Source: a virus
Reading direction: 5' to 3' (one strand)
IMG/VR virus record: IMGVR_UViG_3300037318_000083
Location: 1-41,001 of that record
DNA length: 41,001 nucleotides
Position 1 is the first letter of the stretch, and each line of letters begins with the position of its first letter. Positions 4,709 through 34,589 of this stretch are shown one piece after another. Under the pieces are notes generated by a model. That model saw only the letters and a list, made by a program, of their open reading frames with translations, searched no databases and was not told where the DNA came from. Position numbers and translations under genes: made by a program.

Positions 4709-4737
4709 TGGGTAGGCACTCGGGGCACTTAGTGTTA
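4709..4737 (-). promoter_or_regulatory. early promoter with GTGCCTACCCA operator
   Basis: On the minus strand ACACTAAGTG (TATA-like) is followed by GTGCCTACCCA (4719 to 4709) and the ATG at 4698. The operator-like motif is shared with the other early promoters of this genome. Confidence 0.6.
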
Positions 4738-7346: not shown

Positions 7347-7361
7347 TCGAAAATGACGAAC

Positions 7362-7380
7362 AAGCCCCCTTGTGGGGCTT
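7362..7380 (-). terminator. stem-loop at the end of the membrane module
   Basis: AAGCCCC and GGGGCTT form a 7-bp stem with a 5-nt loop, overlapping the stop codon of the gene at 7379. It lies between two transcription units and could mark transcript ends, but archaeal terminators are usually T-rich, so this is tentative. It also contains an AAG-N4-CTT dyad. Confidence 0.35.
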
Positions 7381-7540
7381 AGTCGAACCTATCCCACAAC
7401 CGCTCCGTGTGTTCCCGCTCACGTTCCCGCTCACGTTCTTGACGCTTCTTGTCCCACTTGTAGACGCGGAACAGTACGAGCGAGAACGCCAACGCGAAGG
7501 CGCATAGGATCAACACGGTGATAGCCACCCGAAACGCCAT
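7379..7540 (-). CDS. single-pass membrane protein with charged coiled coil
   Basis: 53 aa. A hydrophobic helix at residues ~4-25 (VAITVLILCAFALAFSLVLF) is followed by a cytoplasmic helix made of Arg/Glu repeats (QERERERERE). It is the last gene of the module SPFH protein - lipoprotein - this protein, two bases after the lipoprotein stop. It probably associates with the other two at the membrane through the charged helix; that is inference from context. Confidence 0.7.
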   Translation of the reverse strand: MAFRVAITVLILCAFALAFSLVLFRVYKWDKKRQEREREREREHTERLWDRFD

Positions 7541-7542
7541 GG

Positions 7543-7770
7543 CTACGACCCCGCGAGGGCTTCCGTCGTTTCCTCGTTACAGTCGAAGCCCTCAACCTCG
7601 TTCGTCCGGGCGTCATACAGATAGTAGCACACGGTTCCGTCCGGCGCCACCACCTCTTTCACCGTCATGTCGTCTTGTCGGGTCTCGGGAGACGCGCCCG
7701 CGCACCCCGCGACGAGCGCGACGAGGACGAGCGCGGCGACCGCGGCCCGGGCGTGACGCGTCCGGATCAT
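7543..7770 (-). CDS. putative lipoprotein
   Basis: 75 aa. The N-terminus MIRTRHAR is basic, then comes a hydrophobic stretch and the lipobox LVAGC with Cys23, as in haloarchaeal lipoproteins. The mature part is small and acidic, with two further cysteines (VCYYL and FDCNE) that could form a disulphide outside the cell. Start overlaps the SPFH gene stop by four bases, so the two are coexpressed. A surface lipoprotein made early by a virus would suit superinfection exclusion, but this is not shown. Confidence 0.75.
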   Translation of the reverse strand: MIRTRHARAAVAALVLVALVAGCAGASPETRQDDMTVKEVVAPDGTVCYYLYDARTNEVEGFDCNEETTEALAGS

Positions 7771-8675
7771 GGCGACGCCGTGCTATTGGTCGTTTGGTTC
7801 CCCGTCACGTCCACCACGGGCGCGGGGGACCCCGTGCCCCGCGGGACGTAGATGGTGTTGCCCTTTTCCAACGCTTCGATCCGACGTTCCTCAAGGAAAA
7901 TCGGATTCTCACGAAGCGCCTCACCGCGAATCCGAATCACGTCCGCGTCAGCCTCGGCTTCGATCCGCTTGCGCCGGGCCTCCTCGCGTTCGACCGCCAC
8001 CTCGTTTTGCTTCGTTTCGATCCGAACCCGAGCGTTCTCTTTCTCGGTCAACTCGGCTTGGTAGTCCTGCGGAAGCGTCACCTCACGGATTTGGACGGCT
8101 TCGATGGTGATGGGTTCGTCTTCCGCCTCGGCGTCGAGTGAGTCCCGGGCGGCGCCCGCCAGCAACTCACGCCCCCGAGACGTGTAGATTTCCGACGTTT
8201 TGATCGACGCCGCCTCGTCCCGAAGCCGCGACCGGACCGACGGGCGCATGAGGCGTTGCTCGACTTGTTCTTCATTGTTCCACTCGCTCACAAACTCATC
8301 GGACGCGCCGGCGTCGATTCGGTATCGGACTGTCACGTCGATCCGGTGGGTCGTCCCGTTCACCGATTGAACGACCACCGCGTCCCGGCGGTTGGCCTCG
8401 TCACCCTCACCCCGGGTGTCGGCCATGGTGTACGTCCGTGGACGAGTCTCAACGTTTTGGATTGTGACCCACGGCATGACCCAGTGCGGCCCGGGTTCGT
8501 GGACGTTTCCGGTCACGGCGCCCAACTCGCGTTCGACGCCCATGTGTCCTTCGGGCACTTGTTCGTAGAATAGTAAGCCGCCAATCGCCGCCAAGACCAC
8601 GAGGGCGACGAGGGCGACGGCGACCATTATCACCGATACCCCTCGGTTGTCGTTTCGGATTGATGGACTAACCAT
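7767..8675 (-). CDS. SPFH/Band 7 (prohibitin-like) membrane protein
   Basis: 302 aa. A membrane helix at residues ~15-38 is followed by an SPFH domain (~40-200): the VPEGHMGVERELG start, the GPHWVMPWV turn, and conserved-looking RTYTMADTRG and IDVTVRYRID strands. A long charged coiled coil (~205-265, with EKENARVRIETKQNEVAVER) leads to a disordered Ser/Thr/Asn tail. SPFH proteins form large ring-like assemblies in membranes and control membrane proteases and lipid domains. Here it leads a three-gene membrane operon with its own promoter. A virus-encoded copy is unusual; it may remodel or shield the host membrane. Confidence 0.88.
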   Translation of the reverse strand: MVSPSIRNDNRGVSVIMVAVALVALVVLAAIGGLLFYEQVPEGHMGVERELGAVTGNVHEPGPHWVMPWVTIQNVETRPRTYTMADTRGEGDEANRRDAVVVQSVNGTTHRIDVTVRYRIDAGASDEFVSEWNNEEQVEQRLMRPSVRSRLRDEAASIKTSEIYTSRGRELLAGAARDSLDAEAEDEPITIEAVQIREVTLPQDYQAELTEKENARVRIETKQNEVAVEREEARRKRIEAEADADVIRIRGEALRENPIFLEERRIEALEKGNTIYVPRGTGSPAPVVDVTGNQTTNSTASP

Positions 8676-8685
8676 CGACTACCGA

Positions 8686-8707
8686 AAGGCAGGCACGCAC
8701 TAAAACC
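8686..8707 (-). promoter_or_regulatory. early promoter of the SPFH operon
   Basis: On the minus strand TTTTAG (8705-8700) lies 25-30 bp before the ATG at 8675, consistent with a leaderless transcript. GTGCCTGCC, a one-base variant of the shared operator motif, lies just downstream. Confidence 0.65.
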
Positions 8708-24376: not shown

Positions 24377-25840
24377 ATGGACGAAACGGACGAACGAATC
24401 ATCGACGCCGCGAAGTCGTGGGTCAAGCGGCGACTGTCGCCGGGCACGTCTACCTTCGTCCACGGCGGGGGAAACGATAGCGACAGTCGGTCGTACCACG
24501 ACCCGCACGAACGCTCAACGCAACGCTTGGAGGAGTTTGAGTCGATCTACGAACGCGGTGGCCCCGTCGCGTCGTTGATCGACACGCGGGCGCTCATGGC
24601 CTTCGGGACGGGCGCCGAGTTTACGTCCGACGAAGACGAGCGATACCAAGCCGCCCGAGACGGCGAGGTACAGACCGTAAGCGAGTGGCTCAACGCCCAA
24701 TTCGACAATCTCGACAACCTCTTGGTGGACATAGGCAAGGACGCGTACATCTACGGGGACTCGCTCGGCGAGATTGTCGAGACGCGGGCGGGCCAATTCT
24801 CCCACGTGTGCCTCGTCAACCCAAAGACGATGAAACCGTTTTGGGACGACCACGGTCGAATCCATCGGTGGGTCCAAGAAATCACGAAGCCCGACGGCGA
24901 CGAAATCACCCGCCCGTTCCACGCCGACGAAATCCCGCACTTCAAGCTCAAGTCCGTCGGCAGAAGTCCCCTTGGCATCTCGCTGATCGAACAAAACTAC
25001 GACGAAATCAAGCGGTTCGCCCGGAACCAAGAGGCTATCGAGAACGCCATGCGGCTACACGGATTCCCGAAATACCACATCAAGGTTGGCCGCGAGGGCG
25101 CCGGGCAAGTCCCCGACGGCGACCTTCGGCGGGTCCGGGCGCGGTTCCGCAACTTCAACGAGAAAACGAATTGGACCACCGGGCGAGACATAGAAATCGA
25201 CACGGTGGACACGACGAAAACCGAGTTTGAAGGTCTCGCGGAACACGACCTGATGATCCTCGCGGCGGGCTTCGGTGTGCCCGAAGAAATGGCCGGACTC
25301 GGGCGCGGGTCCACCGAGGCGACGGCCAAGGTTAGGCTTCAATCGTTCGAGCGGAACGCCCGCGCCGAGCAACGGAAGCTGGCGGATCAATTTATCGAAC
25401 AAATCGTCCGTCCGGTGTTGGATCGGTATTCGCCGTTCCCGCGGGACGTGGACGTGTCGCTTGAGTTTGGCGACGTGGTGTCGGACCAAACCGCGACCGC
25501 CGAGTGGTTGTCCATCTTCAAGGAATACTACACGCCCGACGAGGTGCGCGAAAAGATGGGCGACGGCCCGGCCCCGGAAGACGAGGAGTTGGGACCGCCC
25601 GGCGGTGCCGAACAAGGGGGCATGGGCGGCGGATTCACGTCGTTCGGCACGGCGCCCGGTGGTCCCGAGACGGGCGGCACCGACGGTGAGGCGACGCCGA
25701 GCGAGGCCGTGACCGACCGCGAGCGTGAGGTGGACGCCCGACTGTCGGCCCCGCCGGACGAACGGCGTGACCGGCGGAAGAACGAAGAAGTCCCCGAGTG
25801 GGTCAAGCGGGGTGAGGTTCGACGGGACGGTGGGTGGTAA
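24377..25840 (+). CDS. portal protein
   Basis: 487 aa. Typical layout: an N-terminal clip/wing region with IDTRALMAFGTGAEF and DAYIYGDSLGEIVE; LVNPKTMKPFWDDHGRIH and the DEIPHFKLKSVGRSPLGISL stretch characteristic of phage portals; a stem helix region; then a crown. The C-terminal ~90 residues are Gly/Pro-rich and disordered. It forms the dodecameric DNA gate of the head. Its stop codon TAA overlaps the ATG of the next gene (TAATG). Confidence 0.92.
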   Translation: MDETDERIIDAAKSWVKRRLSPGTSTFVHGGGNDSDSRSYHDPHERSTQRLEEFESIYERGGPVASLIDTRALMAFGTGAEFTSDEDERYQAARDGEVQTVSEWLNAQFDNLDNLLVDIGKDAYIYGDSLGEIVETRAGQFSHVCLVNPKTMKPFWDDHGRIHRWVQEITKPDGDEITRPFHADEIPHFKLKSVGRSPLGISLIEQNYDEIKRFARNQEAIENAMRLHGFPKYHIKVGREGAGQVPDGDLRRVRARFRNFNEKTNWTTGRDIEIDTVDTTKTEFEGLAEHDLMILAAGFGVPEEMAGLGRGSTEATAKVRLQSFERNARAEQRKLADQFIEQIVRPVLDRYSPFPRDVDVSLEFGDVVSDQTATAEWLSIFKEYYTPDEVREKMGDGPAPEDEELGPPGGAEQGGMGGGFTSFGTAPGGPETGGTDGEATPSEAVTDREREVDARLSAPPDERRDRRKNEEVPEWVKRGEVRRDGGW

Positions 25841-33407: not shown

Positions 33408-34589
33408 ATGAGACCCAAGAACGAAATCCGCGAGCGGCTTCGGAACTACCAGCGTCGAAGCGGAAACTGGCGCCTCAAGGGCCTTCTACTGTCGGCGTTC
33501 ACCGACGCCGAGACGGTCGGCGAAGCGTGGCCCCGAACGGATCGGTGGCTCGCCGAGGAACACAAGCAGTCCCCGTACCGGGCCATGCACACGGCCGACG
33601 ACGGCGGACAAGGGGGCACGCGAAACGTCGTCGTCCCCGCCGAGCGGGACGGTCACGAAATGGCCCACGCCCGCGAGGAGTTTTCCGACCGGGAACTAAA
33701 CAGCGAGGTCCCCCGGGACGAGTATTTCCGGCGGATGCTCCTTCGCGGCGCCGAGGAGGAGTTGGACACGCTGTGGCGTGAGGAACTTCTCACCACGGTC
33801 ATCGAAGGCGCCCAAGTCAAAGAGGTGGCCCGGCAGGCGGCCACCGTCATCGACGTGGACTCGAAAAAGGGCGACTACCCCCGAGGCGAAGGCGCCGGGT
33901 ACGCCCAAGAGCTTTCGGAAGGTGGCCGGATCGAAGACGACATGGAAGGGTACGACACCGTGGCCTTCGACTGTACGAAGTACGGTGCCGGCTTTTCCGT
34001 GACGGACGAGATGATCGACCACGCCCAAATCGACGCTATCGAACGGCAGGTGCGATTCTCGGGCAAGCGGATCGAAAACAGCCTCAACCGGCGGTACATC
34101 AACCAACTCGTTGACAACGCCGGACTGTCGGTGGACACCGATCAGGCGACGCCGACGCTCTCGGAGGTGCAAGGCATCAACCACGCGGTCGGGGAAATCG
34201 AAAAAGCGGACTTCCCCGAACCGAACTACACGGTCATGCACCCCGACTACAAGACGGCGTACTTCGATGAGGCCAACATCAGTCGGGCCAACTACGCCGG
34301 AAGCGACTCGGGTCTCACCCAACGGGCGTTCGACCCCATCTTCGGCACGGAAATCCTCACCGCGTCGTCGGGCGTCTACGACTCCGGCACGGAGTCGTGG
34401 GAGTGGGACAGCAACGACGACGTGGGCGCCGTCGCTACCAACTCGGAAATGATTGGCATCTTCATGTACCAAGACATTTCCACCAAGGACTTCGAGGACC
34501 CGATCCGCGACATTCGGGGTGGCAACGCCCGGGCGTGGTTCGACGTACAAGTCCTTCAACCGGACGCGCATTGTACCCTCGGGTACTAA
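33408..34589 (+). CDS. major capsid protein (HK97-fold)
   Basis: 393 aa. An N-terminal helix rich in Arg (NEIRERLRNYQRRS) and an N-arm up to ~60, then an HK97-like body: EEELDTLWREELLTTVIEGA (spine helix region), AFDCTKYGAGFSVTDEMID, FPEPNYTVMHPDYKTAYFDE and a C-terminal RAWFDVQVLQPDAHCTLGY. Its place after protease and decoration genes, and its length, fit. The N-terminus could be processed by the protease. Confidence 0.88.
   Translation: MRPKNEIRERLRNYQRRSGNWRLKGLLLSAFTDAETVGEAWPRTDRWLAEEHKQSPYRAMHTADDGGQGGTRNVVVPAERDGHEMAHAREEFSDRELNSEVPRDEYFRRMLLRGAEEELDTLWREELLTTVIEGAQVKEVARQAATVIDVDSKKGDYPRGEGAGYAQELSEGGRIEDDMEGYDTVAFDCTKYGAGFSVTDEMIDHAQIDAIERQVRFSGKRIENSLNRRYINQLVDNAGLSVDTDQATPTLSEVQGINHAVGEIEKADFPEPNYTVMHPDYKTAYFDEANISRANYAGSDSGLTQRAFDPIFGTEILTASSGVYDSGTESWEWDSNDDVGAVATNSEMIGIFMYQDISTKDFEDPIRDIRGGNARAWFDVQVLQPDAHCTLGY

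Follow-up and report, generated by a model that had tools for sequence, protein, structure and literature searches.

A prohibitin-like SPFH gene of a haloarchaeal tailed virus and the small membrane protein that accompanies it across haloviruses

Why would a virus of haloarchaea carry a prohibitin-like protein, and what might such a protein do in the infected cell? The question is raised by a locus in the window analysed here, a stretch of 41,001 bases that is an entire virus record, in which genes for an SPFH protein, a lipobox protein and a single-pass membrane protein lie on the minus strand at 7379-8675. The preliminary description read them as a three-gene operon, and this is borne out: all three are intact and closely packed, the ATG of the lipobox gene overlapping the SPFH stop codon by 4 nt, and 2 nt separating the stop of the lipobox gene from the start of the single-pass gene. 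The features discussed below are:

7767..8675, minus strand: SPFH/Band_7 protein, 302 aa (open reading frame; Pfam Band_7 and phrog_200 matches)
7543..7770, minus strand: lipobox protein, 75 aa (open reading frame; weak phrog_3641 match; lipobox genes in the equivalent slot elsewhere)
7379..7540, minus strand: single-pass membrane protein, 53 aa (open reading frame; structural model; leave-one-out HMM)
8688..8705, minus strand: putative promoter, TTTTA plus GTGCCTGCC (enriched motif, common to several minus-strand operons)
7357..7385, minus strand: stem-loop over the stop codon of the third gene (folding energy against shuffles)
24377-25840 and 33408-34589: portal and capsid genes of the window

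Upstream of the operon, TTTTA (8701-8705) and GTGCCTGCC (8688-8696) stand ~15-30 nt before the SPFH ATG. GTGCCTRCC occurs at seven places in the window where 0.35 would be expected (0/100 shuffles), and GTGCCT motifs stand ahead of four other minus-strand operon starts (4698, 7278, 9472 and 11579), so the promoter previously proposed at 8700 is plausible; the sigma-70 promoter scan is unsuited to archaea. The existence of two strand-specific upstream motifs suggests separate late and early promoter classes, and we infer that the operon is early from its strand and from the motif it has in common with its neighbours and with the replication-type arm, where a UvrD-like helicase is encoded. At the other end, the stem-loop overlapping the end of the third gene (-17.9 kcal/mol, z=-2.87, with 2/200 shuffles folding as well) is a possible terminator or processing site; a terminator scan did not flag it. 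Minus-strand motif sites are listed at 4711, 6560, 8688, 9480 and 11625, GTGCCTRCC lying mostly before minus-strand operons. Plus-strand genes have AACGAYTAAG instead (seven observed against 0.09 expected), at 1578, 18087, 24343, 30741, 31321, 32140 and 37045; every one of these sites is on the plus strand, and most precede the start of a gene.

By profile and by predicted structure, the first gene product belongs to the SPFH/Band_7 superfamily and has a predicted N-terminal membrane anchor. Pfam Band_7 matches over the full domain (2-175/176) at E=7.1e-28, scoring 98.3 bits where the cut-off is 23.6, and phrog_200 at E=4.5e-58; in the AlphaFold2 model (mean pLDDT 79) a helix at the N-terminus (residues 12-35) precedes the SPFH fold and a long helix of 54 residues (203-256) follows it, and the C-terminal tail is Thr/Asn-rich with two N-glycosylation sequons. 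The closest solved relatives by sequence profile are prohibitin-2/1, then erlin, stomatin and HflC. Indeed, prohibitin is the best match both by sequence (E=5.8e-20) and by fold (TM 0.64-0.66), with erlin and stomatin next, and the best Foldseek match of the model is the human prohibitin complex 8rrh (E=5e-16). Band_7, phrog_200, AlphaFold2 and Foldseek thus agree with the initial assignment of an SPFH/prohibitin-type membrane module to a viral operon.

SPFH genes are not in themselves new to viruses, since those of HF1/HF2, HRTV and bacterial phages are already annotated. SPFH relatives were found at E<0.01 in 338 phage records; they include the annotated prohibitin/SPFH proteins of the HF1/HF2 and HRTV viruses and proteins of Staphylococcus phages, Burkholderia phages and others; Mycobacterium phages and P1 match more weakly. 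When viral contigs were searched with just the window SPFH, no relatives were found. On the role of phage or archaeal-virus SPFH proteins in infection, we found no functional paper in the open-access literature.

What appears to be new here is the small partner of the haloviral SPFH, of which we found no earlier description in the same literature. Every complete haloviral locus that we examined encodes a single-helix membrane protein of 44-75 aa just downstream of SPFH. The pair extends over three virus families, the Haloferuviridae-like window and five host-genome loci; the partner, here a single-TM protein of 44-63 aa whose C-terminal helix is charged, follows SPFH directly in HHTV-2, HGTV-1, HF2/HRTV, loci L007, L010, L011 and L019 and the viral contig L028, and lies ~1 kb downstream in L008. 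Most partners carry the consensus M..[KR][LV] ahead of the helix and HE.EM behind it, and some fall into phrog_27041, whereas those of HHTV-2, L007 and the window have diverged from the consensus; the partner alignment holds too little conservation to search viral contigs with.

The 53-aa protein of the window is the most divergent partner, with weak sequence similarity to the family, and the phrog_27041 profile does not match it. AlphaFold2 models it as one continuous helix (2-52, pLDDT 84), of which the C-terminal half is charged. Scored leave-one-out against the partner-family HMM it reaches 18.3 bits, a value equalled by 12 of 1000 architecture-preserving shuffles (p ~0.012) and approached by no other non-family TM ORF among the 206 scored. 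It has the single TM, the charged helix and the place downstream of SPFH in the operon, with the lipoprotein gene between. Because the protein is so divergent, its place in the family is supported by position and architecture more than by sequence; we take it as the positional counterpart of the haloviral partner, and probably a remote homologue. That the same pair turns up in haloviruses unrelated to one another, and also in a few hosts, suggests that they share a genuine function at the membrane.

The 75-aa protein in between has a signal peptide and a lipobox cysteine near its N-terminus (...LVALVAGC followed by AG...) and is a predicted lipoprotein; it has a weak PHROG match, to phrog_3641 (E=3.5e-4). 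The slot is filled by lipobox proteins in HHTV-2 and L007 as well, the proteins differing among HHTV-2, L007 and the window. Most loci having the SPFH-partner pair are without a lipoprotein, which is an optional third component of the module.

How does this arrangement compare with known systems? One is gp81-gp80-gp79 of HHTV-2 (Saparoviridae), with the same order of SPFH, lipobox and single-pass helical proteins and an SPFH 55% identical to that of the window, but on another viral backbone. Homology of the two lipoproteins was considered and rejected: BLASTP gives no alignment, gp80 is assigned to phrog_3224, and the two have only weak PHROG matches in common. HGTV-1 (Halomagnusviridae) encodes an SPFH 49% identical to the window's with a small partner downstream (gp229-gp230); unlike in the window, the two are separated by an 86-nt gap and no lipoprotein. 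The Hafunaviridae HF1/HF2 and HRTV likewise follow their SPFH (e.g. HrrHF2_235) with a tiny single-pass protein (HrrHF2_240 in HF2, phrog_27041), but on their own backbone, with 33-36% identity in SPFH and no lipoprotein gene.

Beyond the haloviruses, the window SPFH resembles prohibitin and HflK-HflC-FtsH in its predicted fold, in having an anchor at the N-terminus and in its long C-terminal helix, but FtsH was absent from the 59 Halobacteria genomes searched, and we know of nothing in those complexes that corresponds to the 44-75 aa partner. SPFH-NfeD pairs (QmcA-YbbJ, 8z5g) similarly join an SPFH gene to a small membrane-protein gene; the window partner, however, is a single helix with no NfeD domain, and a Pfam scan of the lipobox, single-pass and other flanking window proteins gave no NfeD match. 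The SPFH genes of bacterial phages (Kayvirus MbpS, Mycobacterium phages, Burkholderia phage Maja) also often adjoin a small membrane protein, as the annotated records of Kayvirus and Maja show, but the proteins are ~20-28% identical to the window's, many are lipoproteins, and the small gene usually lies upstream. A small TM ORF stands immediately upstream in 16/27 viral SPFH locus clusters against 6/49 control genes, a lenient count that allows several start codons and falls to ~10/27 clear cases by eye (p ~0.02). These upstream ORFs are often 40-100 aa long with one or two TM segments (L089, L090, L113, L118, L124, L126, L138, L147, L165 and L174).

As for the virus itself, the only matches of its portal and major capsid proteins in the phage collection are to HFTV1, HRTV-4, HRTV-29 and BLv36. 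HFTV1 being a member of the Haloferuviridae, the window is a distant Haloferuviridae-like haloarchaeal tailed virus, and with identities of just 33-36%, a new distant member of that family or a sister lineage. HFTV1 was found to have no SPFH; the window thus places the module on a further viral backbone, and the module is not essential for such viruses, since HFTV1 replicates without it.

Nor is the pair confined to viruses. In a sample of the class comprising 242 Halobacteria genomes, the SPFH profile gave 41 strong matches in 40 genomes, and the partner profile three strong matches in three genomes, each directly after SPFH; two further pairs lie on host MAG contigs (L021, L024). A virus-only partner is ruled out by G147, G192, G023 and L024, in which the pair sits in chromosomal context among ordinary metabolic genes. 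The designation "virus-encoded" therefore needs qualifying: the gene does lie in a viral operon, but close relatives, and the pair itself, are found in host chromosomes. One candidate for a further chromosomal copy, L028 from a Nanosalina bin, was rejected on its phage-type RNR, thymidylate synthase, RtcB, helicase and RNA ligase. GL982570 (L084/L085), a 54 kb contig binned as Candidatus Nanosalina, is viral and carries the SPFH pair with a Tat-type HExxH protein downstream; its phage-type genes are a helicase, RNA ligase, RtcB, thymidylate synthase and ribonucleotide reductase. Other host SPFH genes stand alone or have downstream of them a gene for a TM protein of 114-156 aa that bears CxxC motifs, apparently an alternative partner of host haloarchaeal SPFH in this clade (CxxC-protein loci: L025, L026, L027, L057, L058, L061, L064, L069 and L071).

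What, then, could the module do? Regulation of an FtsH-like protease, as first proposed, fails as stated, since a Peptidase_M41 search found FtsH in 0/59 Halobacteria genomes against 10/10 control bacteria. The role that we consider likeliest, and put forward tentatively, is that of an extracytoplasmic SPFH ring or cage that organises or protects membrane proteins of the infected cell in lytic growth. An SPFH assembly with its dedicated small helical partner would have been gained by horizontal exchange between haloarchaea and viruses. The SPFH subunits, anchored through the helix at their N-terminus and exposing the SPFH domain on the outside of the cell, would form a ring or dome like that of prohibitin or HflKC, beside which the partner would span the membrane as an anchor or adaptor, with its charged helix on the cytoplasmic side. 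In lytic infection such a cage would retain, shield or gather membrane proteins of the virus or of the host (LonB substrates, for example) and also stabilise the infected-cell membrane, and the lipoprotein would contribute an outward-facing, virus-specific component. We infer this topology from a positive N-flank in SPFH and a K/R-rich C-flank in the partner, charge rules being weak in halophiles; N-glycosylation sequons in the SPFH tails of the window and several relatives, and the lipobox of many phage SPFH relatives, also speak for it. Two proviruses of the HF1 group are without the prohibitin gene (PMC7230728), a small hint of a role in lytic growth.

Could the ring act through a protease other than FtsH? 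Membrane-associated LonB is the essential protease in Haloferax (PMC9263693), Lon was present in 39/39 Halobacteria, and LonB would be the protease on hand. The SPFH ring might capture LonB, the haloarchaeal counterpart of FtsH, through the cytoplasmic helix that the charge pattern of the partner suggests, and so shield viral proteins or redirect degradation. HflKC and prohibitin do assemble with FtsH-type proteases, and such structures (7wi3, 9cz2) are among the Foldseek matches. However, the classical partner FtsH is absent, nothing in the present data ties the module to LonB, and we know of no archaeal SPFH-LonB complex, nor did we find one reported in the open-access literature; we regard this reading as unlikely.

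We would give about the same small chance to superinfection exclusion or envelope protection, whereby a surface SPFH ring and lipoprotein would block DNA entry or repeated adsorption. A lipoprotein slot filled by differing proteins would fit an outward, virus-specific function, and Ltp-type phage lipoproteins act in exclusion (PMC3952083). Yet most loci bearing the pair have no lipoprotein. Exclusion genes are, moreover, typical of the temperate state, and it is two proviruses of the HF1 group that are without the prohibitin gene.

Or is the module a host-derived passenger, a captured SPFH gene with its neighbours and no viral function? Its close relatives in host chromosomes and its absence from HFTV1 would fit such a reading, which we nevertheless think improbable. 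In the SPFH tree, which has some long branches and several weakly supported deep forks, viral and host sequences are intermingled and a single viral clade is rejected (p-AU 3.9e-6), so the gene has passed between hosts and viruses on more than one occasion. The tree neighbour nearest to the window SPFH is L055, a host SPFH without a partner, which counts against the role favoured above, as does the weak sequence similarity of the window's own partner, although both SPFHs are on long branches; that L055 is a provirus like the window was ruled out, as the two have SPFH alone in common. The capture was not recent, given nearest relatives just 51-55% identical, and the small-TM gene recurs across virus families; a very recent chance capture without conserved neighbours, an outcome that would have counted against the initial proposal, is thus not what we see. 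Furthermore, SPFH and partner are under purifying selection in the HF2 group (dN/dS of 0.156 and 0.148), and a passenger sits poorly with an intact, tight operon and a conserved pair found on several viral backbones.

A role in lysis or release, with the lipoprotein and single-pass helical protein as an Rz/Rz1 spanin pair or lysis timer, has a superficial likeness and a few weak Rz-like PHROG matches of partners behind it, but is very improbable, and a spanin is ruled out: haloarchaeal hosts have no outer membrane to fuse, the lipoprotein is missing from most loci, the matches, at E 0.007-0.2, do not stand clear of noise and are of a kind common among proteins with a TM plus a charged helix, the pair also occurs in host chromosomes, the partner's charge pattern suggests a cytoplasmic tail, and the module lies among replication-type genes away from the structural arm.

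Returning to the membrane cage, could it be more general still? A transferable two-gene cassette, gained repeatedly by several halovirus families and building a cage in the infected-cell membrane, with similar pairs in many bacterial phages, would amount to a general viral membrane-organising system; this wider proposal is speculative, and we hold it less firmly than the role itself. An obligate-looking small partner nonetheless offers a concrete handle on viral SPFH function in tractable haloarchaeal systems, and the host copies of the same pair permit comparison. If the cage is real, in a cell without FtsH, it would reveal what SPFH proteins do independently of that protease.
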